A DNA stretch of 64,000 nucleotides, from the NCBI RefSeq assembly GCF_000004075.3, contig NC_026657.2:37992732-38056731 (forward strand), read 5' to 3'. Under the pieces are notes generated by a model. The model saw nothing but the letters and a program-made list of their open reading frames with translations, was not told the DNA's origin and did no database searches. Within the stretch, counting starts at the first letter, position 1, and the number at the start of each line of letters is the position of its first letter. The position numbers and the translations under genes were made by a program. Origin of the DNA: Cucumis sativus. Taxonomy: Eukaryota > Streptophyta > Magnoliopsida > Cucurbitales > Cucurbitaceae. Below are positions 1 through 61,594 of this stretch, in pieces.

Positions 1-697
1 ATCCTAGACCTGAAAATCTTACCTCTTCAGCCTTTTGCTTTCTTTCTCAGCCGCACTTCGTCCTCTGCTCCTTACGCTATCTGATGCAGGCGCTTTACCT
101 GGCGCTGAAATGCCGACTGTGGAGCCGGAGTTGCCGCAGATCTGCGGAACTCTACTTATCTCCTCCTCATCACTCTCCGCTCCTATATCTGCAGTAAAGA
201 AATGAACAATATACATAACGTAATTCTCCAGCAAACGAACAAAATCAGGATGCAATTCCAGAAACTTATTATTAATAGTTATATATACGGATCTACGTCA
301 ACAACTTTACACAAGCTTGAACGAGGAAGGATAATCGCATAGAAGAAATCATCATATTGTTACGAAATTAGGTTAGGAGGATATGTTTCAATCGAATACA
401 GAGCCGCTTGCAATTTCTTCGTGGAAAAAGATAGTAAAAGGAACGATGATAAAATGAAACAATTATTTGATTTTGAAAAATAAATTCGTCTCCGATAAAT
501 CAAAAGAACAAGAAAAAAATCCTAACGACATCCGGCTGCACTACTTCACGTTCAATATTTCCGCTAGAGATCGTAAAGAAAACAAAAGAAATTCAAATCA
601 AACCTTCTTTAACATCAAGTTGAAAAGCGGAGCTAGACGATCTTTCACTACTCGAGCGCATACGACTGACGGTGGCGGCGGAGGCTCGTCCCTGCAT
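1..697 (-). CDS. HY5: HY5-type bZIP transcription factor, first two exons (partial)
   Basis: HY5 proteins promote photomorphogenesis in the nucleus and are degraded through COP1. I read exon 1 at 697-604 (ATG at 697, donor GT at 603) and exon 2 at 188-23 (acceptor CTGCAG, donor GTAAG at 22-18). They join in phase and give 86 residues. Residues 15-31 (Ser-rich, then FQLDVKE) match the HY5 N-terminus. Residues 36-46 (ESDEEEISRVP) are the acidic COP1-binding motif ending in the key Val-Pro pair. The tail KESKRLKR leads into the basic region, which together with the leucine zipper lies beyond the window edge. HYH, the paralog, is less likely because its N-terminus differs and because OCP3 follows directly, as at the Arabidopsis HY5 locus. 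The first residues (MQGRASAATVSRM) differ from the HY5 version I remember. Confidence 0.88.
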
Positions 698-3600
698 TAC
701 GCCGACGAATAATCAACACCGAAAAGATTGGTGTGAGAGAAAAAAAATTGGAAAGCGAAGCGCTGCATAAAAGGAAATGAAGGACTGAAAAAAAGAGCGG
801 GATATGTTTGGTGACAGTGCCTTTATATGAGAGGATGTTGCTTTTGGTTAAATCTGGCCGTTCAATTACTTTTTCAATCTGACGGTTGATAAGCGAACAA
901 CGTGGATGAAGATGAGCTATACAAAGTGAAATCAATCAAAGGTTGTAAAGATGATAGCGTGGAGTATGTTACAGCCGTATGATTAGATTTTGAGAGCACA
1001 CATCCATACATTGTTGAAAGAAAAGACTCGCATTCGATTTATATATCCAAACTTTGTCACTTATATCAATTTAAACTATCTGGTAAGTGCATATTTTGAT
1101 CAACATTTTAATAAGACGTTTGAATTATTATAGTTAGATTATAATAATTTGTGTTTAGAGTGTAGATTGTTTTAGTATTGATTATAATATAATTTGTTTA
1201 AGATGTAAACTAATATAAATTAAAAAATCATAGTAAACACGGAAGCAAATAAGAAAAAAAATTATGAATATCAAATAGTAAAAGTTGTAACAACGTATTT
1301 CTATCGCAAACTTAGGGTTTTGAAATATTGTTTATTTTACCTAAGTGAATTTTAAATAGTATCTGCTGTAGCACGTTGGTTATTATAATTTTCTCATATT
1401 GAACTTTGAATGGCACCTAAAGTGTGGTAAAAGTTGCAATTTAGTATTCAAACTATAATCCATTAATTATTACATTATATAAATTTACAACAATTTAGTA
1501 GTTCTTTTATCAAAATTAAATATAAACTTTTTGACTTATAATATATACACATCCAACTAGATTATCAATCTACATGTGTAGGTTTTTTAATTAAATTCTA
1601 CAAAAAAAATTTAAAATGGACTAAATCATTCTCAATTATAAAACTACATGGATTAAATTGTTACTTAGTGTTTACAAATTTTCAATTTTCAAGCATAATG
1701 AAATACATCAATCAATTAAAGTTCATAAACTAAATTGCTACTTCTATAAAACATATATAGCGATCAAGATGTCTTTTCGTACGTTGATATGTTGCTTTAC
1801 ATACTCACATCTTTGTCACTCATCTATTAAATAAATATACGACAAAAGGTAACAAAAATAGTCATTTGTTTCAACATTTTAAAAAATACATATAAAAAAA
1901 ACAGGTTAACCATGAAATCAATCTCGATCAATCCACAAAAATAACAATTTAATAAGCGTGTTTTTATAGTTGAACGTTGAAATTATTTAATTTAAAAAAC
2001 AAGTTATTTTAAAAAGAAAAAAATAATAAAATATCGACTAATCAATCAAAACACCAAATGTTTCCCTTAAACAATTTTTTCAAACGAAGTAACATACTCT
2101 TTTTATTTCAACAAACTTTTTTCCATAAACAACCAAATGAGCATTTAGTGGCCTAAAAAGTTGAACGTAGGACCATTTTTATTTAAGATTCACTAACTTT
2201 GTACTAAAAAAGGGTGTTTTATATTCATTGAATAATATAGGTTAACACACTCATCTATCTATTGTTTCTCTCATATATTAATTATTGGGTTGGTAGTATA
2301 ATTATTTGGATAGTCGCAAATTTAGCAATTAAATTCAAAACAGTATATAGCAATATTTTTAAAAATTTGTAAATATAGCACAATTTGTCAAATTTTATCA
2401 AAGATATAAGTTTATCACCGATAGACCATATTGCAAATATTGGTCTATTACTGATAGACGTGATAGACTATACGAAGTCTATCAGCGACACAAATCTATT
2501 AATGATAGTTTTGCTATATTTATAATTTTTTAAAATTTTTTATATTCTTAATTATTATTGTTGAAATTGTTATCAATTGCAATTTCCCAAAACTATATGG
2601 TGTTATCCATAAATTATGTTCCAATAATTTATTATCGTAGCTAATAATTAAAACATAAATTAAAATATTTACGAAACATAGTAAATTTTAGTAATAGTTA
2701 TTGATAAGACTTATATCAATCTCATAATTTAAAATTTCGATATATTTTATAAATATTTTTATCAATTTTACTGGTTATAATAATATTCTCACTATATATA
2801 TTTAAGCATCGTCGTATTATATATTTGACATCTTTTATCATTTTAGGAATCTTTTGACTATGAATGAAGGAAGGAATCCACATTTCTCTTTAATTGATAG
2901 ATATGAGATGCAAAAGGTTAAATTGTCACATCATTTAAAACGTTAGGTACAAACATAGCTCAACCAACCAAAAATTTAAAAGTTTGAATTTTCCACCCGT
3001 ATTAATGAGCTCAAATATATACACATATATTAACTCTAGTTTTTTTTAGTACATTTGAGTGTAGTTTTTATTAAATAAACGTGGTTTTAGAAACTAATGT
3101 CAAAAATAAGGTTGGATCAAAACTACCCTATTTTTTCCATAATTTTGTCCCAATTATATATTTTTATTTTTAAAAAAAGTTATTAAATTTTAATTCACTA
3201 CTTTATCATTTTCTTTTTATTTACTTTTTAAAAAACGATTTTTTAAGTACAATTTAAAGGTGAGGATTTAAACTTGAAATCTCTTGTTCTAATTCTCAAA
3301 TTTTGTTGACGATATATTTACTTACGAGAATTAATTATTTTCTTCTATAAAATATGAGACATTTTTAAAAATAACAAAACAAAATAAAATATTTACTGAT
3401 AAACTATCGATGACAGAATTTGCTATCGGTTATAAATATTTTATAAAATTTGTTATTTTTTAAAATTCTTCCTAAAAAATTATAATTTTTTCTACATTTT
3501 TTTTATTACAAGCAGTAAAAGTAAAAGTAAAAGCGAAAGTCTCTAATGTCAGTTGTTGGTACAATTATTATATTCTTAGATGTATGGAATTTACAATTTT

Positions 3601-4363: not shown

Positions 4364-7300
4364 TCAAGCAGATTGAGGAGAAGACCGATCAAAAGGTAGG
4401 CGTGGATCAGGAACTCCATCTTCAACTCGCTTATCTTCAAACCATTTCACTATTCTTTTGCGAGGCAGATTTGTCACTTGGACGATGCTACTAATCATTG
4501 CGTTCTGTATTTGTTGTGCAAAGAAGAAAAAAGTTAGACAATGGTAAAATAACATGTCACTTGATGACATACGTAGAGCTTGGTCAACGACCATCTTGAA
4601 GCTCGATAATTTAATCCTCTCCATCCCACCCCAATCCTACAATTGTTCCGTTAAGAAATAATATGCTATAGAATTTGAAGTTTTCAATACTGCTAAATTC
4701 TACCCTCATAACCTAGGGTTTTCTGAGTTTATGAGGTTTTTGAAGCAAAGTGAAGAATACGAAAGAAGCCACAAGTTTAAGTAAGGCAGTAAATATTCAC
4801 GAGCACACACAAAAAGAAAGAAGAATAAGTTTAATGAGAAGGCAAATGATCTTCAAGCTAAGGCTGGGCTGAGGCATGTCCCTAGGATTCGATCGGTGTT
4901 CATTACCACAATCTTCAACTTAGAAGATTTGGTATTCCTAATAAAGAGCTCTAAAAACAGTTTTTTAAGAAATCAATCCAAACCAACCCTTAGAGAGTTG
5001 AGATAAATGATTCCATTCATCCACACAGATGCACATACATATCCAAGATACAAATGTAAACCATTGGTTGATCTCCTATGTGTCCTAACAACATTAATGA
5101 TATCCTTGCCTCCCTACTGGTGGGTCGTTCTAAATATATATTTGGTTGGCCATTACACGTGCATTATTTGAACTCTGGTTTTTTATTTTTTTTGAATTCT
5201 TTGGAGTAAGTGCAATGGTCATCTCGAGTCTTTCTCATCCTTCCATTGCTTAATGGATTTTATTTTGTTTACCGTAAAAATAAGCCATTTGCTCATTTGT
5301 ACCTTGTTTCCAAATGGAAATCTGTGTTTTGATCACCTACGAGTGCGGGGTTTCCCCTATTTCATTTACCAATGAAATGTTTCTTATGCCAAATTGAGCA
5401 TAGCTATTGGAGTTTGTGGTTTGCATCCCCTACACCCAAATGCACTAAACTGGCACAGGAATTCATCAGATACTCAAAATGTAAAGATTTTATCTTCTTT
5501 TGAAGCACAGCTAATGGAGAAAACTATACTAAACTTACAGTTGGCCGCTTTGTTCTTCTATAAACTCTTTCAAGAGTTTCAATCTGAACCTTCTTCAGTC
5601 TCTTTTGAGCAGCCCAGCTCTGTTGCATGACATGAACAGGCACCTTCGTCACTTCCTCCTCTTTTGCAGTGTCTACTACTAGGGGTTCTTCATCAGTAGT
5701 TTGTAAGGTTTTAGTTTCTATAATTGATGGTTTAGGAGTGTCTGGAAGACTAGCACTCAACATCAGAAGATTGGGTGGTGGTTCGCGAAGCAACTCGAGA
5801 ACGACGGTCCTGTCGAGACAAAGTTCAGCAGCAAGACTCTTGATCTGCAAAGAAAAGGATGCATTAGCCTTCAGCAAGATAAACTTGCAAAGTAAACACT
5901 GCATTAGCATTTAGGAAGACTCTTCTTCAGTAAAGTCAACAACAAATTGAGAAAGTACATAGGGTTTTTTTTATATGGATGACCTTAAAAGTTAGGTGGA
6001 AACAAAATCTGACTGGTTTCTCAATATAAGTTTTTCTGGCATCGGTGAACGTATTTTATTTTTGGGCTCACTCCCTTTTCCCTCTCGCTCTCATTCTCAC
6101 TCTCTCTCCGATCCTATGTTGCCTCCTGTTGCTCTCACTCTCTATTTGACCATTTTGTTCTTGCTCTCGCTCCTCATGTTCCCTCACTCTTAGCTCCCTA
6201 TTTAAAGAGGTTTTATAGTATAAAATCTCATTTGGTATCTATTTGTAAGAGTATTGATATAATATTAAATCTACCTTCACTCACCAAAGTTTTTGGGTTG
6301 TGATTTAAAATGGTATCATAGTCTATGAAGTCCATGCCAACATTTGATCCAAAAAGAAAAATTTGGATCCAACCTTATGAATCATGAACCCAGTGAGGCA
6401 TATCTTGAAGGCCATGTTGAATAGCCCACGTTGATAAAATAGAGAGACGACACACAATCTTATTTAAGATCGATGAGTCTCCGAAAATGAAATTATAGTG
6501 ATTTCGTACTTTGATACCATGTATCTAATATCAGTCAGGATATTCAAATTTCGGGTCTTTCCAAACGGAACTGATTCAAGAAGATTTTGTGCTTTCTAGT
6601 TCCCAAATCAAACGGCAACAAAAACCACAGGTTACTGATATTGCATAAAAAGTTCAATGTTTGAAAAACTCACGCTCGTTTTACGGCGGCCTTTCTTCAA
6701 AGCCAAGGCTAGTCGTCGAAGTTGCCAGTTCTTTAGTTTTACAGGCATTTCCTCTTCTTCATCATCTTCATCGTCGCCGTCGTCGTCATCTTCTTCTTCT
6801 TCTTCTTCTTCTTCTTCTTCTTCTGCTTCTTCTTCTTCTTCATCAACATCGATGCCAAGAGCTAACCCTAGCTCGCGCTCAAGTCTGGCAAGGTCCTCTT
6901 CGCTAAATTCATCGTCTTCACCCTCATCCAAGGAAGACGCGTCATTCTTGAGATCTTCTTCCAGTTGACTAAACAACAACTCAAGAGCATCCTCCTCTAC
7001 ATCCTCCTCCTCGTCCCTAGCTTCTTTCGGAATCAAATTTCTCTGCAAAAAAAAAAAAAAAAAAGTAGAATAACAAAATTTGAAGTTTCAGATAAGCTTA
7101 ATTACACGCTCATGCCAACGCAACAGAAACAATAAAAGATTAAGTAAAATAAGATCACCACACTATCTAGAACTCTACCTTCTTTTTCTTCGAAGATGAT
7201 GAAGACGAGCTGACAGATGAATTTTGGTTCCGACGGCGAGCAAATGTGAGCGACAGAGTGCGACAAACCGGAGGACGATGCAGAAGAGTAAAATTGGATG

Positions 7301-8524: not shown

Positions 8525-10330
8525 TTATAATTTGATTTCATGTAATAAATAAGCATTTCCTTTATAACTAAGCTGCCTAACCTCAGTCCCAACACAGAAT
8601 AAATGGCCTTCCAATCCCAATTCTCCCTTCATTCCAGCTGTTTCCCAAACAAGTTTAAAAATCCCCATTGCTCTATCAAGCTGCCTCACCCCATTCCATA
8701 CAATTTTCTCTTCATCACAGCTCAAAACCCTCCCCATGAACAACAAAAACTTGTCATTCCCATCACCCTTCAACAACCCACCACAAAAATCCACTTCAAT
8801 ATCCCTAAAATGCCCAAAAAGATAGTATAGTAAAAGGGTGAACAAGCACCTGGATGAGTGCCCCAATGTCTTTGAAAGCTTCTTTTGCACCAAGCTTTCT
8901 TGAAGTTTGGCTTCCCTAAATCCAATGCTTCTATCACTCCACACATCTTTGATTTGGGAAAGCCCTTCTTTCATAACCTCGAGCTTTGTTACATAATGGA
9001 CCAAACTCTTCTCGTCTTTCAGATAGCCGATCAGATCGTTGAACATCTCGAGCATGTCTTCCCATCTTGGCGGTGGAGATGACTTGACTACCGTTCGTGA
9101 TGGCGCTGGTCGAATCCATGAAGAGAAGTGAACATTTGAATTGGTGGCAGTATCCAAAAACTTTAGGCAACTTGAAACTATCTGAAGCGACATTTTGATC
9201 CCTTTGTCGGTTGAGCGATGAGATAATGGAAGCAACTCCAAATTTAACTCTTTCAGTATTTGATCCAATGCACCAGTCCAAATGTGATGCTGTGTAACCT
9301 GTTTAAACATCAAACATCAAACATATACTAATATAACATTTGGGTTTCATAGTGACTTATCCCAATGTTAACAAAAACAAAACACGACTTGGCCTAAAGG
9401 TGTTTGGAGATTTTGAGCCCAAGGATTCAAATTTCATAGCAACCAGCTCACCTAAGATAAAATTATAAGATCACCAATGCACCAAAAAAAACCTAAGTTA
9501 ATGGGTGATGGTAAATTTCTTAATATATCAATACTTTAAGGTTTTCCTTCACTTTGAAATATGTGAAAGATCTAACAAGTACAAATTAATATTACTTGGA
9601 GTGGAAATAACATTCTAAGAAAGATCTAACAAGTACAAATTAATATTACTTGGAGTGGAAATAACATTCTAAGAGTTTGAACACATGAACTCTTCTTAAT
9701 CTTAATATTAAATCACGGATGAATCTAAAATTTTAAGATAAGCTAATGGATGAAGGTAAGTTTAATGATATATCACTGCTTTAAAACACCGCCAATTTTC
9801 TTTTGGACAATTCTATATGGTCTAACCTGTGGGCATATGGTGTGGCGCACCAGTTTCCTTTGCTGGACTGTGACCCCGAGGATGTTGCACACCTTGGTGA
9901 GTGAATCAACAACCATAGCCTCTCGTTCACTTGAATTTCTGAACCATGCGTGAGGCTGACAATTTATAGAACTCGATCCAGCTATCTCTGTTATTCTCCT
10001 CTGAGCAGATGGAGAACCAATCAAGATTCTTACAAGGGACTTGAAAGTGCGCATTTCCTGTTCAATACGCTCATCGCTAATGGTCGAATCATCACTAGCA
10101 TTCACAACTCGTCCATCCATCAAATCCACATTCCTCAACTTACAGCTCAATTTCTTTATCTTCCCAAAAGCCTTCTCGTACCATTCAGACGGTAACACCT
10201 CTTGAACGGCGGAGGAGTCCTCTGCGGAATGATACAGCATAGAATTTGATTGTGAAGCCCCACATCTTGTGTTAGTGAGATGCTTTAAGCGAGAGATGAA
10301 AAACAGCCTCTGCAACTGATTATAAATCAT
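8525..10330 (-). CDS. Conserved plant protein of unknown function (two exons)
   Basis: Two long open exons join cleanly: 10330-9827 (donor CAG/GTTAGA) and 9298-8525 (acceptor AAACAG), phase 0, giving 425 residues from ATG 10330. A later in-frame ATG at 10240 (MLYHSAED) is an alternative start, because an acceptor-like TTGCAG lies just after the first ATG and a leader intron may end there. The protein is mostly helical, polar and without membrane segments or a signal peptide. Distinct blocks include SEWYEKAFGKIKKL, DERIEQEMRTFKSLVRILIG, QQRKLVRHTICPQVTQHHIW, LGHSSRCLFTLLLYYLFG and IFKLVWETAGMKG. I recall similar uncharacterised proteins in other dicots but no function. The intron holds a perfect 54-base tandem duplication. 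A same-frame open stretch at 10549-10361 just upstream, ending in stops, may be an upstream ORF. Confidence 0.75.
9565..9672. repeat. Perfect 54-bp tandem duplication in an intron
   Basis: The unit starting GAAAGATCTAACAAGTAC occupies 9565-9618 and is repeated without visible change at 9619-9672. It lies in the single intron of the unknown gene. The identity of the copies suggests a recent event, or an assembly artefact. Confidence 0.9.
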
Positions 10331-12360: not shown

Positions 12361-13323
12361 TCACAACCATTGTGAATACACTGAATCAGAATTTGAATAC
12401 GAATCAAAGTCACTATTCATGATCTTATTCATGAGCAAACTAGCTCTCTCTCTCGCTTTTGCTGATCCTCTCACAGAAAGATCAGCAATAACTCCAAAAA
12501 ACTCTGGCAACTTCGAAGCATCACTCAAACAACCTTCGCTTTCGTCGAACAATCGCAAAAGTATCTCAGTTGCACCTTCTTTACTCAGCATGCACCTTCC
12601 TTTCAACACATTAACCATTGAAATTACGATCCGATCGGTTTTTATCAAAGCTCTCAACCCCTCCTCAAATCTAGCCAAGAGACCGAGAACAACAAGAGCA
12701 GTACCAGCGAGATCCTCACCGCTAGTACTCTCCACTACACTGATAAGAACTTGGATGGCTCCGGATCGAACTGCCACAGTGCAGTTCCCGTGAAACTGGC
12801 CTAGTTCAGCTAAGGAACAGAGAAGGTGATGGGCAGCAGGAATGTTGGGAACTTTAAGTGCTCTAACCAATAGTTGTATTGTCCCTGCTACACCAAACTT
12901 AGCTTTGTTTTTGTCTAACATTGCAAGGCTGCAAATCAATGAGGACGATAGCTTGACAGTGTCGGGGGAGCCAAGAGATATAAGTGTATTGAGATGGTAG
13001 ATGGTTTCCATTGATGCAAGAAGCTTTTTCATGTCATGGTTCAGAGAGAGGTTGAAGAGAATTGACAGTGAAAGAGATTGGATGGTAGAGGAAGATGATT
13101 TGGAAAGACCAATAAGAGTTGAAATCGATCCATCTACTTGTACAAGCAAGTTCCTGTGTAGAGGACTAACCTGAGTAATGGTGACCAAGTTTTGAAGAGC
13201 CTTTTCTTGAACTTCGTGAGCATCTGACCGAGCCCCCGCCATACACTCTGTTATGGTTTTATGTGCAGTAGCAACACTCATGGATCTCATGGAAGAAGAA
13301 GACTGGAAAGATGCAACTGACAT
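12361..13323 (-). CDS. Armadillo-repeat protein (U-box-type ARM domain without a U-box)
   Basis: A single uninterrupted reading frame of 320 residues from ATG 13323 (MSVASFQSSSSMRS); three more codons are open upstream but begin with TTG. After a Ser-rich head of about 25 residues, the protein is a run of helical ARM-type repeats: EVQEKALQNLVTITQVSP, GSISTLIGLSKSSSSTIQS, LSLSILFNLSLN, VKLSSSLICSLAMLD, GTIQLLVRALK, AAHHLLCSLAEL, GAIQVLISVVES, GTALVVLGLLARFEEG and GATEILLRLFDESEG. This resembles the C-terminal half of plant U-box E3 ligases, often named U-box protein 4-like or VAC8-like, but there is no U-box and so no sign of ligase activity. ARM arrays bind protein partners; the partner here is unknown. 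An acceptor-like TTGCAG near 13403 on the same strand suggests a leader intron. Confidence 0.85.
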   Translation of the reverse strand: MSVASFQSSSSMRSMSVATAHKTITECMAGARSDAHEVQEKALQNLVTITQVSPLHRNLLVQVDGSISTLIGLSKSSSSTIQSLSLSILFNLSLNHDMKKLLASMETIYHLNTLISLGSPDTVKLSSSLICSLAMLDKNKAKFGVAGTIQLLVRALKVPNIPAAHHLLCSLAELGQFHGNCTVAVRSGAIQVLISVVESTSGEDLAGTALVVLGLLARFEEGLRALIKTDRIVISMVNVLKGRCMLSKEGATEILLRLFDESEGCLSDASKLPEFFGVIADLSVRGSAKARERASLLMNKIMNSDFDSYSNSDSVYSQWL

Positions 13324-14761: not shown

Positions 14762-16670
14762 TTAAGGAATGGTGCGCTGGAAAAGGGGCAATGCTCCCAA
14801 TGCTTCACGTTCTGCTCTCTCCTTCTTTACCTGCAAAACATACCCCAAAAGGGAGGGAAAAGAATCTTTAGGTTCATTCACTCAACTTTCTTCCACTTAA
14901 TAAAGAGAAATGAAATGGAATTATTTAATTTAGCTAAACGAAACCATTTACCCTAAAGTGCAAAGGGAAAATGATAAAGAAGCAATATAACAGCAGTCTT
15001 GCAAATCATTTACCCTATACCCTAAATTAGATTGTTTAATTTATTCTAAACTAAGTAGTATTCAAGAAATCAAAGGAGTTGTAATATACAAATAATGTAG
15101 GAAAACATATTGCCCTACGTGCTGCTGCTGCTGATGCTACATCATAGCTAACATTAATGCAAATTTCATTAACCTAAACTCAGACATAATATAAAGCAAT
15201 CAAGTACATCAATAAGAAGAATTGAAGCAGGCTAATCATCAAATCATCAACCTTGCGAAGTCAATTCTTATCCCAGCTTCCCTAGTCCCTTCCATACTCG
15301 CCAGTAAATAAAAATCAAAGAATCCAGACTAATAAAACCAAAACTTTAATTACCAGCACACAGTTTACTTATTTGCACGTGATAAAGTAATTTACTCGTG
15401 ACTCATGAAATTGTACAACAGAAGAGATCAAGAATTCAACCGCAAACAAAGTCCAACAAAAGTCATGAATTTACTTCAAAAGAAAGCATATCAAGGATTC
15501 ACACATATTACCCAAAAGCTTATAACTATCTAGAAAAGACAAGAGAGAAAGAGCGAGAAACCTCAAAGTAGAAACCAGATAACAATAGAACTACAGTAAA
15601 TAAACAATTCAACTGCAATGCAAGTACGAAGCAAAATACCATCTAATCTAACAGATGGTAAATAAAATCTCTCTCTTTTTTTTTTTTTGAATAATAATCT
15701 AACAGATGGTAAATAATATAAAAACCAATAAGTCCCAAATACAGGTTATAAGATACAAAAATCAAGTATCATGACTGACACTAAGAAATAGAACAGCCGC
15801 TTTATTCCTATGAACAGAGCCAGACATTTTCTTTCACTTTTTTTACCACACTTCTTTTTCACTTTAATAAAAAAAGCAGGAGATCTTGTATAATGGAAAG
15901 ACTTACAAGTGCCAGCATTTCCTGGAGATAGCTCCTGAATGGTGTTTGCATGGCCTGCCAATAGGTTAAAAAAAATTAAAATTCAAACTATTAACCAACT
16001 AACTACGGTTTACATGCTCGGTGACCTGCCAATAGGTTTACATGCTTGGAGGAAAATAATTAAACCCAATATAATTATTTCTTAATCCTCGGTGACCATG
16101 CAAAATCACAACCATCCAATAAATCCCAGATTTGAAGAATAGCGCACGCTCAACAATTATATTATGACCATGTTGGATATAGAATTAATACTGACTACTC
16201 CGTGACAACAAAACGTAGCATTTAGATATTCGGTAATAATAAACATACAACACATTTCCATTTCTTTTCAGCGAGGCTCAAACCCGATCTAACGAGGGAG
16301 AAAAACATCCATAGTAGAAAGAAAACCTGAAGATTATCGGGAAGATACTGATGCTTCATAGAAAGGTCCATGGCCCGTTTCAAACGCTGATTGCGTGCAT
16401 CAACAATCTCCCTCGGGAGTCGATCCAAAGCCTCCTTCACATCAACATCATAGTACGGATCATACAGATCGTCATATCGAAGACCTAACAAAGTAATAAA
16501 ACCCAAAATCAATTCCCAACAGATCAAAAATCGAAATCAAAGCCAGAGAAAAAGAAACGATTAGGGTTTCAGTTACCATAATTACGGAGTCGTTTGGTGA
16601 GAGTTTTCATGTGTTGACGAGCGAACCAATTCTTCTTTGGATCAACGAGGAACTGCATAAAGGACGCCAT
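14762..16670 (-). CDS. QCR7: Cytochrome b-c1 complex subunit 7 (14 kDa QCR7)
   Basis: QCR7 is a small matrix-side subunit of mitochondrial complex III (ubiquinol:cytochrome c oxidoreductase), needed for assembly around cytochrome b. Exons: 16670-16577, 16484-16327, 15954-15907 and 14830-14762; they join in frame to 122 residues, the usual plant length. The start MASFMQFLVDPKKNW, then HMKTLTKRLRNYG, LRYDDLYDPYYDVDVKEALD, RLPREIVDARNQRLKRAMDL, HQYLPDNLQ, AMQTPFRSYLQEML and the tail EREALGALPLFQRTIP are all near-invariant family segments. No cleavable presequence is expected for this subunit. A telo-box-like AGGGTTT lies in intron 1 next to the donor. The last intron (15906-14831) is over 1 kb and holds a 20-base direct repeat around a T-run. 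Confidence 0.96.
15645..15718. repeat. Direct repeat flanking a T-run in QCR7 intron 3
   Basis: The 20-base string AATCTAACAGATGGTAAATA appears at about 15646-15665 and again at about 15697-15716. The short segment between them contains a T-run. This could be a local duplication or the footprint of a small retroposed insert. Confidence 0.5.
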
Positions 16671-16934
16671 TTCGAACCCTCTCTCCTTTCTTCCTCCCCC
16701 AGAAAGATTTGCTCTCTGATTTTTTCTTTTTTCACTGCCCACTTCGGCTACAGCTTCGCCTTTCTCCCGTTTTCTGGAATAATCGCCTGGTCGAGTTGTT
16801 GGTAAGATTTTACGACGGAATGCGAAATTATAATCTTCAAACGAATCGGCCCATTACGTATACGGCCCAATGGAAGGCCCACCTACTTCATCTATCACTC
16901 GTAAATTTGGATGATACTCATAGACCAATATTTA

Positions 16935-17530: not shown

Positions 17531-17837
17531 AATATAATGGCTCATTTTTCTACCGTTCTGGTAAATATTGTAATTGAATTTGAAAATATAACCAAAATTA
17601 TGTTGTTATAGAATTGCATTTTTAATCCTTCCATTTTTGGGATTTGGTGATTTTGGTATTTGGGATTTTAATTTGGGAATATAACTTATGTTGTCTCCCT
17701 TTACATATCGTTTAGGATAAATTTCCCCTCATCCATTGCTCTCATTTCTTAACTTAACTTAGTGAATCTATGAAAATGAACATTTATAGTTTTGACCTTA
17801 GATGAGGTAATATGTGTATATTACTACTTATTTTCAC

Positions 17838-21003: not shown

Positions 21004-21700
21004 CACATTTGTAGGAGCTGAATCGACGACGGCCGGAGGATAATATGAGTAAGAGATTAATTATTGAACTGATCAAGATCAACCTGTAATCATCGAGAGG
21101 AAGGATTGAGAATTCTGGCTGCCTCAGATTAATGGTTTAGGAATTAGGTAGAGATGATTGATGAAATGAAGAATCTGTAAATCGAGAGAAGATGTCGTCG
21201 TTTAATACAATTACAGGTTCTTACAATATTATATAATTAACCCCATTCTTATTATTCTTCTTCTTCTTCTTCTTCTTTAGATTGTTGTGATCGTGATTTT
21301 GAGATTAATTAATTTAATTGTTGTAGGCTCAGGTTTGTAGGAACTGAATCGAGAGAAGGCTTAGGAAGTAGGGATTATTAGGGATTAATTATTTTCTTCA
21401 AAATGTCGAAGAAGTGGAAGAAGAAGGGATTATTAGGGAAATCAATGTGCGGGGCCGAGCAAGAACGAGAGATCGATCAAATAACGAGAAACGAAGGTAG
21501 TCATTACAGTCTCGACGGTAGTCATTACAGTCTCACCGGAGGAATCCTGCCGCCGCTAGGCGCCAATGGACAAAGTAATCGAAGATTAAAACTCCGTCGT
21601 CGTACAATATCGCCATTCGATTACAATTACAGGTTCTTGATTATTAATAATTACAAAGAACTGATCTAACCTCATTTTACTTCTTCTTCTTCTTCTTATT
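21004..21700 (+). repeat. Diverged tandem duplication of the channel gene's leader and first-exon region
   Basis: Block A (about 21004-21275) and block B (about 21327-21700) share a series of words in the same order: TTTGTAGGAGCTGAATCGA versus TTTGTAGGAACTGAATCGA; GAGATTAATTATT versus GGGATTAATTATT; ACAATTACAGGTTCTTA versus ACAATTACAGGTTCTTGA, which is the exon/donor junction; and a CCTCAT/CCCCAT word followed by a CTT run. Block B carries the true exon 1. Block A also has an ATG followed by a short open stretch ending at the duplicated donor. Confidence 0.7.
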
Positions 21701-24700
21701 ACTACATGAATTGAATTGAATCTCGCAGAGTTTGGGAAACGTTTCTGATATTTCTTGTATTGTACACGGCGTGGGTTTGTCCGTTTGAGTTCGGGTTCAT
21801 ACCTTCGCCAAAGGGACTTCTTGCTGCAATCGACAATATAGTGAATGGATTTTTCGCGATTGATATAGTATTGACATTCTTTGTGGCATATTTGGATAAA
21901 ACAACATACCTGCTGGTGGATGATCGGAAGCTGATAGCACTGAGATATGCGAAATCATGGTTGGTATTGGATGTAGTGTCAATTATCCCATCGGAAGTGG
22001 CTCGTGCTATTCTTCCTCCTTCGCTTCAGGCTTATGGATACTTCAATATGCTTCGTCTATGGCGTCTTCGAAGAGTCAGTTCCATGTTCGCCAGGTATAA
22101 TCAAATTCCCTTCAACTATATTCTCAACCATTCATAAATAGTTTAAAATTTAGTAATTCAATTTAAAATAATTAGCTTTCAAAATTTTTTAAAATAATAA
22201 ATTTTACCAAAACATTTACAATTTATAGCAAATTATATCACAAATAATTATTGATATGCTACACGAATAGAAATGATAGAATCCAAAATTTTGTTATAGC
22301 TTGTAAATATGTTATTTTATTTTGCTAGAGAAGACTATAACCGATAGAATCCAAAATTTTCCTATAACCGGTAAATATTTTATTTTATTTTGCTATTTTT
22401 AAAAATGTCCCTAGATTATATTAGTTTATCTCCCGTACAAGTCTACAATAGTCGTTAATTACAATTACCCAATTTATAATTTACTAAAAACAAACAGTAC
22501 CTCAATTCATTTTAAAAAATAACCAAATATCGACTTCAATATTTGATTTTATAAATACTAATTGATTATTTTTTCAATAAGTGACCGAAATGATATGGAC
22601 AAAATTTAAAACCCTACGAACCAAAAAAATTTAAAAATAATAACACTCAAAATATTTCATGGAAATATAACAAAATGGTCGTTAATTCTGTAAATGTTGT
22701 TATAACTAAATATTATTCTTAAAAATGTTACACATTGTAATTATACCTTAAAATCGATAAACCAAAGCCAAAGCCAAAACCAAAAATATAAGAAATAAAG
22801 TAGTATTCCGAAGTTTTATTTAAAGTATTTATTTGCTATTTTGTTTTCAATTTCTGTAAAACTTCAAAATCTATCTTAAAGTTATATCTATAATTAAAGT
22901 AACAATATTAAATATTTTCACCAAGATGATTACGAAGATTCATGATGAAATAGTCTTTAAAAGCTAATTAGATAGCAAATAATTGTGAACTTTACAAATC
23001 AAAACTATGCTTAAATCTTCATCTTTGCAAATTTCACCTTCTTTTCGTTAACTATTTCCATAAAATAATTTTTAGAAAACAATAAAACCTCACAAGTCAA
23101 AATCTTCATCTTCGTGTTGTTTCTTTGACTATTTTCATAGAACATTGATGAAAATTCAAGGTAAAATAGCAAATAATTATGAACTCCTTAAATCAAAACT
23201 ATACTTAAATCCTCATCTTTGAAAAATTCACTTGCATGTTGTTAGCTAAATATTGCTGCAACTACTTTCGACAAATATTGATGAGAATTCCTCACAAAGT
23301 ATCAATCTAAATAATAATAATAATACTAGATAAAAAAAAAAAAATTGTAAAAACTTGTTTTTTATTTTCGAGATTTTATTCGATATATCAATTACAATTA
23401 ATGAACTTAATTTAAAAAATAAATAAAAGAAGCAAATAATTTTGAAAACTATCCTTAAATCCTTGTATTCTCTTGGGATCTAAAGAAAATGTTTAGATGG
23501 TTATTGTGTAGATTGGGATATGATAGAGATGTAGTCCATGATTAAAAGTTTGATTTATTTTTCTTTGTCCCCTTTCAATAATGGCGGCAGGTTAGAAAAG
23601 GACAAGAACTTCAACTATTTCATGGTTCGATGTGCTAAGCTTATATTTGTAAGTCTTCTTGTTTTTTGCTTTATTAACTTAATTTTAACTTTTGAGCTAA
23701 TTGTTTCTACCTTCCAAACTTCCCAATTTAGTTCCAAAAGATTCAACCATAATCTAAAATCAATTATTAAAATTTTTTCAAATGAATTTTCAAGGATTAA
23801 TTAGAACCAACTTTTAAAAAAGTTTTCCATTCCTTATGTATATGTAAGTTCATGCTTTTTATTTGTTAGGAAAATGATTTTTAATATTAAATATTAAGCA
23901 TATAAATCCGACCAATATCAACAATTTTAAAAGAGCTATAGTTAGTTGCATATTAAAAGACACCTACTTTGAAAAATGAAATAGCTATCAAACACAATTT
24001 TTGAGTAGATTCTATCGTACGAGGATTGAATTGGATTGTATGTATATATATATATAGGTGTGCCTGTTCACGGCTCATTTTGCCGCGTGCTGCTTCTATC
24101 TAATAGCTGCAAACTATCCAGACCCAAAAGAGACATGGATAGCCTTGTCCATAGATGACTTTTATACAGCAAGTTTGGGGAGACGTTATGTTACGGCCAT
24201 TTATTGGTCAATTACCACAATCACAACCATTGGCTATGGCGATTTGCATCCCGTAAATGAACAAGAAATTACTTTTACCGTCTTTTACCTCTTCTTTATT
24301 CTCGGCTTGCAAGCTTATCTCATCGGAAATATGACTAACTTGATCGTCCATGGCACAAGTCGAACCAGGAAATTTGTAAGTTTATCTCAACCTTCTTTCT
24401 TTCTTTCTTTACGCTCATTAGTCGGATATGAGCTCATGAAATAGTACGACTTAATAGATACAAATGCTTCCAATAGCCACCTCAAGAAAGCATAACTCAA
24501 CGATAGATATATCCTTTGATGTTAGAGATTAAAATCTTCTCTTTTGTTTGTTTGATTCGAGATTAAGATTTGTGGAGGATTTTTTTGTCTTTATCAGTCG
24601 TTGAAAAGACAGTAACGTACCCGTTTTTATGTGTTCATCTTCATAACGTTGGTTGCATTGGATTATTTCAGAGGGACACCATCCAAGCATCCTCGAATTT

Positions 24701-27700: not shown

Positions 27701-28457
27701 AGCTGCTGTCCGTATTCCCCAAAATCCTGAATCGAAATACGTACAGAAGTTCCCGAGCGAATCAAGCATGCCACCGCGAATTTCTGAAAACTCCTGCCCC
27801 ACTCCTATTCGAGAATCGTTTTTTTCTGATAGGCCACCAAGAAGGAGGAGCAATAATTTTCAGAACTCACTAGTGGGATTCATGACAACTAACACAGGTA
27901 AGGTTTTATTTTGCTTACTTAAGAAACTCATTGTCTCAATTTCCTAAATTTCGAGGGAACTAATGAATCAAAATCTCTAGATTGTGTAAACATTCTAAAA
28001 CCTAAAAGGAACACTCTTATATTGGTCTAACTAGACCATTGATACTCTAGATTTTCTCATTGTGCATAGAGAATTAGAAAATTATCTTATAAGATTGGAA
28101 CTGACTTTCTAAAGCCAGCTTTTAACATATATTATAACTGCTATTTAAAATCATACAGGTGAAAGGGACATTCTACAACGCGCATCACTCAGTTATAGCA
28201 ATAGCCAAAGCATGAGAATGACTTACCAGCAAAGAGTTACTATCAGTTGCCCTGAAACGGGAGACATTTCTGGAAAGCTAGTGCTTTTACCCAAATCCAA
28301 CCAAGAACTACGTGAAATAGGTTCCAGAAAATATGGGATTTCTATAGCAAAGGTTTTAACTAAAGAAGGAGCTGAAGTTGAGGATACATACCTTATCAGA
28401 GACGGCGATCACCTCGTACTTGTTGGTGATGCAGGTACTAGTCAACAAAAATTGTAG
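21403..28457 (+). CDS. Shaker-type inward-rectifying potassium channel, AKT5/AKT6 (SPIK)-like
   Basis: A plasma-membrane K+ uptake channel of the AKT1/AKT5/AKT6 group. Twelve coding exons (21403-21632, 21729-22094, 23591-23648, 24058-24375, 24672-24917, 25217-25315, 25871-25903, 26025-26210, 26863-27060, 27157-27232, 27316-27897, 28159-28457) join in frame to 896 residues; AKT1 has 857. Order: basic N-terminus; SNRRLKLRR then S1-S6; voltage sensor MLRLWRLRRV; selectivity filter TTIGYGD at 274-280; VHGTSRTRKFRDTIQAS linker; cyclic-nucleotide-binding-like domain (about 395-510) with YFPPKEDIILQNEAPTDFYI; five ankyrin repeats (about 520-700); and a KHA domain in the last exon (GKLVLLPKSNQELREIG to IRDGDHLVLVGD). 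The family works as tetramers and is typically activated by CIPK-CBL phosphorylation. Neighbours (QCR7, VHA-c'', CV, TIFY8) point to the Arabidopsis AKT5 and SPIK loci rather than AKT1. Confidence 0.93.
21496..21537 (+). repeat. 21-bp in-frame tandem duplication in channel exon 1
   Basis: The unit GGTAGTCATTACAGTCTC plus three bases occurs twice in a row and encodes GSHYSLD-GSHYSLT. Other AKT1-group proteins I remember have one copy (like SHFSLSTG) before the GILP motif. Confidence 0.85.
22275..22405. repeat. 68-bp tandem duplication within a foldback element in channel intron 2
   Basis: GATAGAATCCAAAATTTT followed by a GTAAATATNTTATTTTATTTTGCTA-type stretch occurs at 22275 and again at 22343. 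The surrounding DNA (22150-22420) is a diverged copy of foldback family 1. Confidence 0.55.
26361..26582. mobile_element. Tourist-like MITE (PIF/Harbinger-type ends) in channel intron 8
   Basis: A 222-base non-coding segment with terminal inverted repeats: left GGGCTTTTGGGAGGATGGAAT (first 20 bases shown to the A; 21 in all), right complement GGTTGTTTGGGAGGCTGGAA, matching at about 17 of 21 positions. Both ends are flanked by TAA (26357-26359 and 26583-26585), the target-site pattern of PIF/Harbinger elements. It has no transposase, so it is a non-autonomous DNA transposon. Confidence 0.7.
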
Positions 28458-47682: not shown

Positions 47683-48292
47683 ATGGCTTTAAGAATCAAC
47701 TGCTCATCTTCTTCACTTCTTCTCCTTCCTCAAGCTCCCCATTCCAATTCCTTCCACTCTACAAAATCGTCTAAATTATCTCTGTAAGTCTTCATCAAAT
47801 CACCACTCAATCTCTCTCTTCCGATTCTATATATAACGAATAAAACCGATATCTGTTTCGCAACTGTTTTTTTCATCTTTCAATTTCTCGATTGACTTCA
47901 GGAAAGAAGATGAACGATCATGGAGAAGTCGTCGAAGCGTATGCGCTTTAGGTTTAGCGAGTTTGATTTTCGCAATCGAAATCAGCGACGTCTTCATTGC
48001 TAGTGAATCTCTTGCTGTGGAATCGCCGCCGCAAGTACTTGTGGATTATTACTCACGGATCAGGCGTATGAAGAAGATATCGAGATGGAGCGATAAGATC
48101 AGAAAATGCGCTCCATGGCGAGCGAATTCGTTGGAGATCATTGTGCCGGAGAACCTCCCGAGGGCGTCACAGCGTCGGAAGTGGGAAGGAATTGCATATA
48201 ATGAATTCATAGATGTGAAGAAGAACGCTCCTCCGGGAATTCAAGTAAGTGCTTCTGAAATTAGCTCTGATAATTACTGTTTCTCTTTGTAA
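47683..48292 (+). CDS. CHLOROPLAST VESICULATION (CV)-like protein
   Basis: Exon 1 is 47683-47783 and exon 2 starts at 47902 (acceptor CTTCAG). The frame is open to a stop at 48292 (163 residues); a good donor, CAA/GTAAGT at 48245, means that coding may instead leave at residue 148 to a last exon I cannot place. The N-terminus (MALRINCSSSSLLLLPQAPH) is a plausible chloroplast transit peptide, followed by a hydrophobic VCALGLASLIFAIEISDVFI. The C-terminal block RWSDKIRKCAPWRANSLEII, then VPENLPRASQRRKWE, resembles the conserved C-terminus of CV as I remember it. CV is a stress- and senescence-induced protein that enters plastids, destabilises photosystem II components and drives chloroplast-derived vesicles to the vacuole. 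The neighbours VHA-c'' and an AKT channel reproduce the order around Arabidopsis CV (At2g25625), which strengthens the call. Confidence 0.68.
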
Positions 48293-51939: not shown

Positions 51940-54900
51940 TTACTGTTCAGCATTGAGATCTGCTGCACGAACAGCTTTTTGGGTCTCTTCCGCTGCAACG
52001 CTGCGTGGATGATCACCTACAGCTACAGCCAGAATGTTGGTTTTGGTTTGTAATTTATTGGGTATAAAAGCCATTAAAATGAACCTAAATGAAAAAGATT
52101 GCATCAGCAAACTCGCAATCAACTTTCTAACAAAGTAAAATCTTACTATTGAGTCTTGAAAACCTGATAGATAGCTGTAAGAATCCATGATCGCATATAC
52201 TAATATATTTTGTTGTTAATAATCATACTCAGGTAATCCGATCTTCTTTTTAAGTTAGAATCACCTGCTTGTGTCGAGATCGGAGTATCGCCAACACCTC
52301 GACTGGTGGATATCAAACTATGATATAACTTTCCATGATAATCTTTAGCTGATTCTTGCTCACTAGGTATCCTAGTTATATTTAATTTAGGTGCTAAATT
52401 TGTTGACCAAGAGCCCCCATTTGATCCAGCTAAGGCCATTATAATATCAGCCTGAAAAATATTCGGCAACAAGTGCTGAGATTAATGGATAATTAATTAA
52501 CAATAAAAGAGATTAAACATGCAAACATGATTCTTCCTTCTAAAACGTGGTCAGTTGCTAACAAATATGAACTAGGAAACGAAAGATGTGGAACAAATTT
52601 TATACATTTCTTGACTTGTAATTAGATGGCACTTTACTCATGTATGTTGCCATTTACTCATTTGACTCAAAACTTTAGCATAGCTAAGTCTCGATTAAGT
52701 ATGCCGGAACCTATATTCCAATTGCCCATTTGATACAAAATTTGTAGAAGCCAAAGTCGATAAATCTTTACCAAGTATGCATGGGGAGCTTGTCAGTTCA
52801 AAAGTCCAAGAAAAAATGAGAATAGTATAACGCATACTTATAAATCCAGATTGGTTTCAAATGAAGCATTTGCCATATAGGAAAAAATACCTTGTTTGGA
52901 TGGACATCATCAAAAACATGAGCTTGACCGCCGTAGAAAATAGTCATCTGTCTGTTGTCGGAATCAAGACCCTGCTGACTGTCACAATATATTTAAACAC
53001 ACAGCACTATTAGGTCGGTTCACTACTCCACCTATACGTCTGTTTGTTTTGTCATCTATTTTTTACAAATGGTTTCAAAATTTCAAATTAATTTTTGGGG
53101 CGGGGGGAATTGCATTGAAAAACATGTATTTGGTTTTGGAAATTGACTAAAAATTTAAATGGTTACTTAAAGAAAGATGAAAACAGGGGAGAAACACAGT
53201 TTTCAAAAACCAAGTGGCAATCAATTGAGACCTTAATTGTTGAAGAACAAATGAAAATGTAAGCTGTTCAAAATGATCAGCGGTCTGGAATCTACCTTGA
53301 AGGGTTAGAAGATTTGTATGCTAAACTTTCGGTCTTGGTCTTCTGCTTGTCACAACTTTGCAACATTTGAGATGAGTGTCTTTGATCATGTCGAGCATTA
53401 AAGCTACTTAAGAGTCCAGGGTTTTTCATCCCAGTTCTAGATCCTTCATCAGCAGCAGATTGAGAAATATTGGAAGGAGCAACATTAAATTCCCTTGAAG
53501 AATTGGAAGCTATTTGATGAACACGAGGCACAAACTGACTCCCAAGTGAAGAATTTAGTGCAGAACTCATGTTTGATGGAATAGGTCTCTCCCATTTGGA
53601 AACACTAGGATTGAATCTAGTGCCAAGAGAATGTTGTGTGAGGGAAGAAGAAGCAATTCGTGGTGGCTGCATACTGTAGACCACCTCATTATCGTTGTAT
53701 CTTGGTCGATCTCCACCAGCTCCATTTTGTAGTATCTGATACAAGATCAAAGAAATTTATATCAAATTATCCATTAAAATCTTTTTCGCTCCCACGTGAG
53801 TACGACTAAAGAAACTAAAAGCTGTCAAAACCTTCACTGCATGCGACTCTCAAGAGAGTCAGAGGCTTACATGAGGAATTTGGTTTCTATATGGTCCCAT
53901 GAAAGCAGAATCTGGATTACCACGTTTAATCCCAGCTATTCGGTTACCGTTTTCAGGTCCAGATATATCATTCCTTGGACTATAGAATGGAACCCCTTCA
54001 AGGTAATCACAAACCTGATTTTCTATCAAAAGTGAGGAAAGAACAGAGTAAATTTCAAATCAGACAGATGTGAGATGACACTTGAAAATAAAGCAAAAGG
54101 CCACAGTAAGGATTCAAAATTATATACATCAGTAAGTTCAGTTCAAACTTCACAGATGAAACAAAATAAGGAATAGAAATGCACGTCACAACACTCAGTT
54201 CAAGGAGAGATATACAAGCTGAATGAGACTTTTGGCCTGAGTAGGAAGAAATTAACAAAGGGAAAGGAAGATTCTAGGAAAAAATAAGTGTAGTTTCCAT
54301 TTCAGAATAGCATATAGTTTTAAAAAAACAGAACTAAAAGAGATAACCAAATGGAAAAGAGGTCTTTCAGAAAGCTTCAAACCAATGGTGACCTCAAAGA
54401 AAACAAACCATTACACTTTACAGTGACATAAAGAGCAAAAGGAAAGAGCGTTGCAGACAGAAATTCTACGTTGCAGGAAGAAAATTTGAATAAAACTACC
54501 GAAGTCAACTTTATACAGAAAAGACGAGTTCACACATAATAATCAATATTTTATAATCAAAAGCTGCCTAATAAAAAAAATGTAACAAAAAATGAAGAAT
54601 CACGCTCAATGAGAATCGAGAAACTATCAGAAGACGATAACGATCGGAATATTCATCAAAACAAAAGGAAAACAGAAAAAATCGAAGTCATTCAGGCCAA
54701 AAGGAGAAGCAATTAAACAAAGGCAATAAAAACTAAATAACCTAGAAAAACGCAAATTGAAGATAGTGAATGTTAATTAAACAGACCAGACGCAAGATCG
54801 GAGGCAGCGGAGATGAGTCCACGGCCACCACTGGATGAAGCCAAAGCCGACGGCGGCGTCGATGCCTCTGAGAAGCTTACATCCGGCGTCTTCGCGGCCA

Positions 54901-55039
54901 AGAGTACGGAAGCATCTTTCGTCTTAATGCCAAGAAAATCATGGAAGATCGCATTACCTAACTGTGGAACCTGACTCGTACTCTTCTTCTCACCATTGCT
55001 GCAGTAACCAGCATCGGAATAAGCGCCTTGACGAGCCAT
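51940..55039 (-). CDS. TIFY8: TIFY8-type protein (TIFY motif, no Jas motif)
   Basis: TIFY8 is a nuclear transcriptional regulator of the TIFY family. It has a ZIM/TIFY domain for NINJA binding and dimerisation but lacks the Jas motif and so is not a JAZ. Exons: 55039-54787, 53995-53871, 53735-53296, 52978-52891, 52451-52229 and 52016-51940; these join in frame to 401 residues. The N-terminus (AIFHDFLGIKTKD) is a conserved TIFY8 feature. The middle is Ser/Asn-rich and disordered. The TIFY core MTIFYGGQAHVFDDV lies at 284-298 and continues as HPNKADIIMALAGSNGG over an exon junction typical of the family. The C-terminus has KRRSDYLS, then HPRSVAAEETQKAVRAADLN; there is no SLxRFLxKRK-like Jas motif. 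If the exon 5 donor is not used, the frame ends earlier, at 52200. The internal exon 2 acceptor (TTGAAG) is weak. Confidence 0.9.
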
Positions 55040-59505: not shown

Positions 59506-61594
59506 TCAAACAGTCCCAGGGTTGGCCTTCTTCTTGATATCATCTATCAACTTATTTGCACTAAAAACAGCATCTTCAGATGGACTTCTGCGTTTGACAA
59601 GCTCTCTAGGGTCTTTACAGACCTTCAACATTTCAGACATTGCCTCAGCTTTACGCATAATAGATGTTCTTCTGGCACGAATAGAATCAGGAGTTTGATT
59701 ATAGGTATCGGGTAACTTCTCTGAATGAGGAACCGAAGACATCATTTCTTGCAGCTTAGATGCCATTTTTGTCAATCCACGTTTCATGAATTCATCGTGC
59801 AATCTGCAGAAAGTAAGATATTGAGGAACAATTCCTCGATGAATCATGTGCTCAAATTCTGCAAAAGCTTCTTCAAACTTATGCATCTTACAAAGCAAAT
59901 GCATTAACATGGTGCTTGTAGCTAAATCCATGTCAAACCCTCTAGCCTTCATTTCATTGCAAACTTGAACTGCAAGGTTCAACCTCTCCTCTTCACATAA
60001 CATCTTCAGCAACAAGTGATATGTAAGTTTATCTGGCGCATATCCTGATTCAATCATTTTATTGTAAAGGCTCATACTCTCCTCAATTTTACCGTATTTA
60101 GAGAAGAATCTGAAAAAATAGTTATAGGTGGTCGGGGTTGGAGTGAATCCTCTACCAATCATCATCTTAAGGATCTTGCTAGCCCCAGAAAGATCTCCTG
60201 CTTTGCAATACCCCTTGACAAGAGAATTGTACGTTGAGATAGTCGGACCTTGCTCCAAAACCATGAACCGCTCCATCATTCCCAGTGCCTCCTTAAACCT
60301 CCCAGCTTCCCCAAGTGCATCAACTATAGGGTTATATACGATTGCATTTGGCTCAATACCTTCCCTCCTCATCTCATCCACCAATTCAATGGCAATTTCG
60401 ACACTACGCATTCGACAATACCCTTCTATTAGGGTGCCATATGTAACAACAGTGGGAGATATTTTGTTCTTCTTCATCTCAAACCAGAGCCTCTGAGCAT
60501 GTTTGAGCTTTCTTGATCGAAACCATCCATTTATAAGTATATTGTATGCTCGAATTGACGGTTCAAAACTAGAACCCATTTCCCTTTTCCTATTGAAATA
60601 CTCAGAAGCTACCCTGACATGGCCTTCTTTGCAGAGTGAATCCAGTAAAATCTCAAACAATCCCTCCGAGCCGGTCCCTGAAATTGTTTCTAGGTTGCAA
60701 GCAAATTCATACGTTCGAATAGCAGGTTGAACCATGCCTGAAGCAATTATCATCGCATAAGAACAAAAACGAAAATACAAATTAAACCGTTATCTCTAAC
60801 AAGAACATTCAATAGTAGATAATGAAAACATCAAGATGATTATAACTCTTAAATTGGAATGGCGAAGGATTGTGATTTCCAAATATGAATTTTCATATCC
60901 TGGGACGATTGAAAATAAATGGAAAATCTACCAAATCCATACAGAAATACCGACATTGTAGTCTCGTTAAAAATATACCTGCACGAGCATACCGCCTGAT
61001 CAATATCACGAAGACCTCCACCGAAACCAAAAAGGACTCTTCACCTCCACGTAGACGAGAAGTGATCAAAGACCAAGCAGAATCAAACTCCCTTGATTTC
61101 GCAAGCACGTTGATCAGACGGTTGAACAATGCAGCAGAGGGGCGAAATCCAGATTTCTTCGCAGCCCAAAGAAACAGCGAGTGCAAGAACTTAGGAGACG
61201 AATCAAAATGATCGAACACAGCTTCCAACAAACTCGAACTCGGCACGATTCCAGTCCGGTCCAAAGCATCCTCGAGCGCGGCACCGGGCCGAACACTGCG
61301 ATCGGAAAGGATGCTAGAAATGGTAGACAAGTCATTCGGCGAATAACTTGCTTCGAATTTCACGTCAATGGCAGAGTTAGGGTTTGAAATCACCGCAGAA
61401 TTTGATGGCAACGGATTGGCAGGCTGGTCGGGCAATGAAGGCCACTTTACGAGGGGCTTTCCTGGCGTGGACAGCCATGAATGAGGAGACAAAGAGGAGA
61501 ATTGCAGAGCTGAAAATCGAAAACTAGAAGGATGATTGTGTTGGATGGAGTGGAGGATTCTGTATATCAAAATGAGAGGTTTGTGAATGGGCAT
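59506..61594 (-). CDS. Mitochondrial pentatricopeptide repeat protein (At5g11310-like)
   Basis: PPR proteins bind organelle RNA base by base, one repeat per nucleotide, and act in editing, splicing or stability. Exon 1 (61594-60979) and exon 2 (60737-59506) join in frame to 615 residues. The first about 40 residues (MPIHKPLILIYRILHSIQHN) are basic, hydroxylated and Leu-rich, fitting a mitochondrial presequence. At least ten 35-residue P-class repeats follow, for example FNRLINVLAKSREFDSAWSL, YNILINGWFRSRKLKHAQRL, YGTLIEGYCRMRSVEIAIEL, YNSLVKGYCKAGDLSGASKI, YNYFFRFFSKYGKIEESMSL and YHLLLKMLCEEERLNLAVQV. There are no E, DYW or SMR domains, so it is a plain P-class protein. The tail is basic and carries SIRARRTSIMRKAEAMSEML. 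The 241-base intron is unusual, since most plant PPR genes lack introns. Locus neighbours suggest orthology with At5g11310 (about 602 residues, from memory). Confidence 0.88.

Follow-up and report, generated by a model that had tools for sequence, protein, structure and literature searches.

Introduction

The alpha and beta duplicated blocks of Arabidopsis follow a pattern in which one block of an outgroup corresponds to four Arabidopsis segments that differ in which genes were lost. In strawberry, the HY5 fosmid 01I13, described in 2010, is reported to hold At5g11280, OCP3 and HY5 beside CESA1 and SHS1, a mix of genes matching Arabidopsis chromosomes 5 and 4 (PMC2890015), and a cucurbit-common tetraploidization has been described in cucumber and its relatives (PMC6856369). 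Here we analysed a stretch of 64,000 nucleotides of the cucumber (Cucumis sativus) genome (the window; C3:37,992,732-38,056,731, in an assembly of 226.6 Mb and 88 contigs), which holds a HY5-type bZIP gene and a Shaker-type potassium channel among other genes. The original prediction for this DNA had stated that genes with matches on chromosomes 5, 4 and 2 of Arabidopsis alternate here, as the remains of an ancestral block that lost genes after duplication in the Arabidopsis line. The alternation was borne out by gene content and by the order tests, and the ancestral block is supported by collinearity, by grape chromosome 4 and by strawberry. The window is very probably part of one ancestral eudicot block, which was doubled twice in Arabidopsis with differential loss and doubled once more in cucumber.

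The course of events that we propose starts from a block of genes in the eudicot ancestor, which spans about 300 kb in cucumber and would include the window. Once the Arabidopsis line had separated from the cucurbits, two doublings of the block would have given the segments At2g25, At4g32, At5g11 and At5g25, and we take these two doublings to be At-beta and At-alpha. Different genes would then have been lost from each segment, which would explain why neighbours in cucumber, and in grape and strawberry as far as these were compared, are now scattered over three chromosomes in Arabidopsis. The block would also have doubled once more on the way to cucumber, with the cucurbit-common tetraploidization as the likely event; one copy would be the C3 window and the other, partly emptied, the region C2:20.82-21.18 Mb. 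The ages of these doublings are inferred, as is the view that the missing genes were lost and did not move elsewhere.

Collinearity with Arabidopsis, grape and strawberry

Genes were called with an ad hoc gene finder in the window and 100 kb on either side of it, and gene families were checked by searches against Pfam and the PDB sequence set. The Arabidopsis side consists of locus codes printed in papers, apart from At5g11350, At4g32470 and At5g11300, which we take to be the codes of CCR4-6, QCR7 and cyclin A2, respectively. Direct sequence comparison with Arabidopsis covered proteins with solved structures (AKT1, AKT5, KAT3, KAT1, SKOR, GORK and part of HY5). The published codes were those of HY5, OCP3, At5g11280, CESA1 (At4g32410) and SHS1 (At4g32400) (PMC2890015), AKT1, AKT5, AKT6/SPIK and KC1 (PMC3410407, PMC8508874), VHA-c''1/2 (PMC2424043), CID5/6 (PMC9400066), SHN1-3 (PMC5146979), EBF1/2 (PMC12290401), the ZIM gene At4g32570 (PMC3485569) and the CESA gene At2g25540 (PMC2649120). 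For At2g25625 the sole source is a literature listing in which the code co-occurs with 'chloroplast vesiculation'. A literature search on sets of six locus codes gave no pair for the At2g25 codes, At5g11310, At5g11350, At4g32470 or At5g11300, and a search on the At5g25 and At5g11440 codes gave the CID pair only.

By these codes, the cucumber block is collinear with each segment. Against At4g32 none of the 21 pairs was discordant (seven anchors, p about 0.0004), and the same was seen against At2g25 (0/15 pairs, six anchors, p about 0.003), At5g11 (0/21 pairs, seven anchors, p about 0.0004) and At5g25 (0/6 pairs, four anchors, p about 0.08), in tests that are not independent because the nucleotide-sugar transporter is counted on all four segments and cellulose synthase on two. 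As CV on At2g25, and the PPR and At5g11280-like genes on At5g11, are named partly by position, their use as order anchors is circular and unfair; with them dropped, five anchors remain on each of these two segments, all of them in order (2/5! = 0.017 each). At least five ordered anchors on one segment were found for At4g32, At2g25 and At5g11.

The homologues of the block's transporter in Arabidopsis were taken to be UAfT1-4, which are At5g25400, At5g11230, At4g32390 and At2g25520 (PMC5773217). One UAfT gene lies on each segment, and the relation is therefore one to four, not one to three. The original prediction had named three Arabidopsis segments and missed At5g25, which is brought in by the UAfT, CID, SHN and EBF codes. 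Further pairs among the four segments are EBF1/2, SHN2/3, CID5/6, VHA-c''1/2 and AKT5/AKT6.

According to the grape literature, VvK4.1 of the KC1 group is VIT_04s0008g04510 and VvK1.2 is 04990 (PMC8508874), HY5 is VIT_04s0008g05210 at chr4:4.72 Mb (PMC4023599) and the SHN3 orthologue is VIT_04s0008g05440 (PMC5146979). By these published gene numbers KC1, K1.2, HY5 and SHN stand on one grape chromosome in the same order as in cucumber, and the intact grape block that had been expected is there for these four genes; OCP3, QCR7, VHA-c'', CV and TIFY8 were outside this check. Other grape copies are placed elsewhere: VvK1.1 on chr11 (PMC8508874), the SHN1 orthologue on chr9 (PMC5146979) and HYH on chr5 (PMC4023599).

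Arabidopsis has the HY5 group and the AKT/VHA group on separate chromosomes, as would be seen if two ancestrally separate blocks had fused in the cucurbit line and Arabidopsis kept the older arrangement. Grape, however, holds KC1, K1.2, HY5 and SHN together on chr4, strawberry holds At5g11280, OCP3, HY5, CESA1 and SHS1 together, and a UAfT copy is found on each of the four Arabidopsis segments. The arrangement in grape (four genes) and strawberry (five genes), as published, makes such a fusion exceedingly unlikely.

The second cucumber copy and older copies

Cucumber carries the block twice, a point missing from the original prediction. Seven of the 11 block proteins searched (HY5, UAfT, EBF, VHA-c'', TIFY8, CYCA2 and CV-like) recur on C2:20.82-21.18 Mb. 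The C2 copy is inverted: none of the 21 pairs departs from the inverted order, and strands are flipped for 7/7 genes. A clustering probability obtained for these matches takes best copies throughout, is too favourable for that reason and is not used here. Identity to the C2 copy is 66% for EBF and 85% for UAfT, while the CV-like match is short (39 residues). EBF is closer to C2:21.17 (66%) than to two further copies (58% and 55%). As a guide to whether the C3/C2 pair is younger than gamma, the identities of EBF and UAfT are indirect and mixed.

Further copies of an AKT1-type channel, EBF and UAfT were found at C1:16.42-17.05 Mb and C2:1.26-1.34 Mb, segments that look like an older pair, perhaps of gamma age. 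The existence of such copies (the channel at C1:16.42, with 805.8 bits to AKT1 and 697.3 to AKT5; EBF at C1:17.05 and C2:1.33; UAfT at C2:1.26) could suggest that At5g11/At5g25 and At4g32/At2g25 are gamma-triplication copies older than the split from cucumber, and that the interleaving comes from coincidental loss in several lineages. We consider this extremely improbable, as the further channel and SHN copies of grape are on chr11 and chr9 and not on chr4, one cucumber block matches all four segments in order, and grape chr4 joins genes from both sides.

Several observations weigh against a single block doubled twice in Arabidopsis and once more in cucumber. Both Arabidopsis and grape were compared by locus codes and not by genome alignment. 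At5g25 offers only four anchors, and so does grape, where the order has p about 0.08 and co-location carries the weight. CCR4-6, the PPR gene and, by the code taken for it, cyclin A2 are reversed relative to At5g11350, 11310 and 11300; when the codes taken for CCR4-6 and the cyclin are added, At5g11 has 3/36 pairs discordant, as one small inversion would leave. On C2, the cyclin A2 match at C2:20.826 is not the best non-self match (the other six genes agree without it), and UAfT is nearly as close to the copy at C2:1.26 (83%) as to the one at C2:21.14 (85%). Four of the 11 searched proteins, the channel (AKT), SPOC, CCR4-6 and OCP3, gave no C2 copy, which we read as loss. Finally, YUC1/4, SHM3, LEUNIG and NAA50 were expected but were not noticed in the gene list, with none of them searched for; YUC1 and YUC4 presumably lie in the At4g32 and At5g11 segments, yet among the genes listed over the 264 kb around the window we noticed no YUCCA-type monooxygenase, with no search aimed at YUCCA.

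Gene content of the window and its flanks

The genes observed in the window are the following (window coordinates).

23 to 697, minus strand: HY5-type bZIP gene, first two coding exons (604-697 and 23-188); Pfam bZIP_1 (PF00170) on the joined exons, PDB 2oqq HY5 at 47 bits
4364 to 7461, minus strand: OCP3-like homeodomain gene; Pfam Homeodomain, 30.1 bits
8582 to 10330, minus strand: gene in the place of At5g11280 (unknown protein); gene model, placed as in strawberry fosmid 01I13
12361 to 13316, minus strand: ARM-repeat-like protein; Pfam ARM matches, all under the curated cut-offs
16284 to 16773, minus strand: QCR7, complex III 14 kDa subunit, first two coding exons, model unreliable at the 3' end; Pfam UCR_14kD, 67.5 bits, and PDB
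21192 to 28434, plus strand: group-1 Shaker K+ channel of the AKT5/AKT6 (grape K1.2) side; bit scores against AKT1 and AKT5
30167 to 39845, minus strand: CCR4/Angel-type nuclease gene (CCR4-6 by position); PDB matches
44876 to 45904, minus strand: VHA-c'' V-ATPase proteolipid; Pfam ATP-synt_C and own-genome search
47903 to 48244, plus strand: CV-like gene (chloroplast vesiculation, by position); own-genome search
51940 to 55039, minus strand: TIFY8-type gene; Pfam tify, 54.9 bits, second copy at C2:20.846 Mb
59506 to 61594, minus strand: PPR gene of 615 aa in the place of SOAR1/At5g11310; Pfam PPR_2, 207.5 bits

Most of the gene calls made earlier stood at the family level by Pfam and PDB. CV, SOAR1 within the PPR family, CCR4-6 within its family and the At5g11280-like gene, which is an addition to the earlier gene list, are names by position only. 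Pfam gave no match for the CCR4-like piece or for the CV-like and At5g11280-like proteins. In the PDB search the CCR4-like piece scored 62.4 bits against both CCR4-NOT subunit 6-like and Angel 2, and other genome matches of this gene are at most 45% identical. The CV-like gene has one further match in the genome, at C2:20.904 Mb (58% over 39 residues), which is the expected place on C2, so this call found some support while its name remains one by position. SOAR1 (At5g11310) has been given as about 602 aa (PMC4157714). The best PDB match of QCR7 was 'Cytochrome b-c1 complex subunit 7-2' (8bep, 143.8 bits), and a search of the genome with the OCP3-like gene gave four matches, every one at the window locus.

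Some other features were seen in the window. The coding region of the OCP3-like gene has a triplet-repeat run (6749-6841) that encodes a long Glu/Asp stretch, the At5g11280-like gene has a perfect 54-base tandem duplication in two copies between exons (9565-9674), and a tRNA-Gly(TCC) gene lies on the plus strand at 47425-47496, 0.4 kb upstream of the CV-like gene.

In the flanks, the gene finder gave, outward to the left of HY5, a PGAP1-like gene, a cellulose synthase, an SHS1-like carrier, an AFG1-like ATPase, the nucleotide-sugar transporter and a small zinc-finger gene, and further left, in order, an SPX gene, a SNARE-like gene, a SHINE-type AP2 gene, EBF and a TPX2-family gene. The right flank holds cyclin A2, a SPOC-domain gene, DnaJ, a CUE-domain CID-like gene and TamB/TIC236-like, EPC-like and ArfGAP-like genes. 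Six of the flank names are family-level Pfam assignments (AP2, carrier, cellulose synthase, CUE, F-box/LRR and TPT), and the others come from reading of the predicted proteins. The best PDB chain for the cellulose synthase scored 1,419 bits and the next 990. CESA- and SHS1-family genes to the left of HY5 had been expected before the flank was inspected, and both were found. The two minus-strand halves of the TamB/TIC236-like gene are separated by plus-strand frames that resemble reverse transcriptase (+112631 to +115906 in window coordinates), which would fit a non-LTR element lodged in an intron.

Identity of the channel

The window channel had been assigned to AKT5/AKT6 and not to AKT1. It scores 658.5 bits to AKT1 and 614.3 bits to AKT5, and this raw score, being higher to AKT1, would mislead if taken alone. 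The other channel, at C1:16.42 Mb, reaches 805.8 bits to AKT1 and 697.3 to AKT5, AKT1 and AKT5 score 675.2 bits against each other, and the two cucumber channels 683-686 bits. In the phmmer quartet, which consists of bit scores only, with no tree and with AKT6 outside the comparison, the pairing of the window gene with AKT5 and the C1 gene with AKT1 sums to 1420, against 1356 and 1358-1361 for the alternatives. Together with the position of K1.2 in grape, the quartet supports the AKT5/AKT6 side and the earlier assignment.

The grape review calls VvK1.2 'AKT1-like (group 1)' (PMC8508874), and this, with the raw score, would speak for the window gene being the AKT1 orthologue. In our reading VvK1.1 is the gene paired with AKT1, and the review uses 'AKT1-like' for K1.2 in the sense of group 1. 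Since the quartet favours the window gene with AKT5, the C1 gene is by its score the better partner of AKT1, and of the grape channels it is K1.2, not K1.1 (chr11), that belongs to the chr4 block, we regard AKT1 orthology of the window gene as highly improbable. A three-residue indel in the voltage-sensor stretch was considered as a mark of AKT5 and dropped, because the AKT1-type C1 gene has the extra residues too.

AtKC1 is At4g32650 (PMC3410407, PMC8508874), and a KC1-type channel was expected beyond TIFY8. About 145 kb to the right of the window (C3:38.2003-38.2042 Mb) a Shaker gene was found that scores 552.9 bits to KAT3/KC1, 441.2 to AKT1, 434.5 to KAT1 and 391.8 to AKT5. A KC1/KAT3-type subunit and an AKT5/6-type channel share one block here, as they do on Arabidopsis chr4 and grape chr4.

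The HY5 pair

Just the first two coding exons of the HY5 gene are inside the window; the bZIP exon is to the left of it (C3:37,992,481-642), and the last exon (ILKNTTTNKRSDGDAAKS) lies near window position -1,500. The exons as modelled contain no stop. A second HY5 gene, canonical in form, is at C2:21,120,384-21,121,138, with the start MQEQATSS and ESDEEIRRVPEIGG, where the window copy reads ESDEEEISRVPQICG. The two are identical at 101/149 aligned residues (68%). In the zipper, the window copy matches AtHY5 at 28/35 positions and the C2 copy at 31/35. The window gene is a bZIP by Pfam and has in common with the C2 copy the N-terminal stretch SSSERSSSSA and the tail ILKNTT.

The COP1-binding core has been described as VPE-hydrophobic-G/E (PMC5049392). 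It is VPEIG in the C2 copy and VPQIC in the window gene, and because the latter fails the pattern, we file the window gene as a diverged copy of the HY5 locus and not as a full HY5.

Outside the two HY5 loci, no match exceeded 44% identity among the eight matches listed from the best 33 scored candidates. As only the best candidates were scored, a separate HYH gene is likely, though not proven, to be absent from the genome. That no other HY5/HYH-like gene was found among these candidates could mean that the window gene itself is HYH, and its modest identity to the C2 copy and the lower zipper identity to AtHY5 would fit with this. Against it, of the two grape genes it is HY5 that belongs to the chr4 block, HYH being on chr5, the N-terminus and tail are those of the C2 copy, and the block is collinear with C2; we find HYH a very improbable identity. 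Block position, the N-terminal stretch and the tail support HY5 rather than HYH, as had been called, with the correction that there are two HY5 copies, of which the window gene is the diverged one.

It is possible, if rather doubtful, that after the cucurbit doubling the window gene beside OCP3 became a second, functionally changed HY5, which would have kept its bZIP and whose altered COP1 core could escape or weaken COP1-driven turnover and replace HYH, with the C2 copy as the canonical gene. An editing study of CsHY5 targets, as described, one gene, XM_004138683 (PMC12189740). Work on light signalling in cucumber must distinguish the two HY5 copies.

Discussion

Gene identities in the window were confirmed by position, and the Arabidopsis partner segments were corrected to four. 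The pattern is an ordinary, textbook outcome of polyploidy and gene loss, a process that is long established, and the HY5 pair alone holds some interest beyond that.

To our knowledge, grape has had no doubling after gamma, and it differs from cucumber in this respect, cucumber having one more. In its chr4 block, as published, grape is like cucumber, with four genes in cucumber's order on one chromosome (PMC8508874, PMC4023599, PMC5146979). The strawberry fosmid 01I13 has five genes in the same order as cucumber, but it is a single fosmid, and AKT, VHA-c'', TIFY8 and a chr2 partner are not among the genes reported in the passages concerned (PMC2890015). The cucurbit-common tetraploidization predicts a second copy of the block in cucumber (PMC6856369), and a copy was found on C2. 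Compared with the alpha and beta blocks of Arabidopsis, the cucumber case shows no difference in kind and is one more instance of them.

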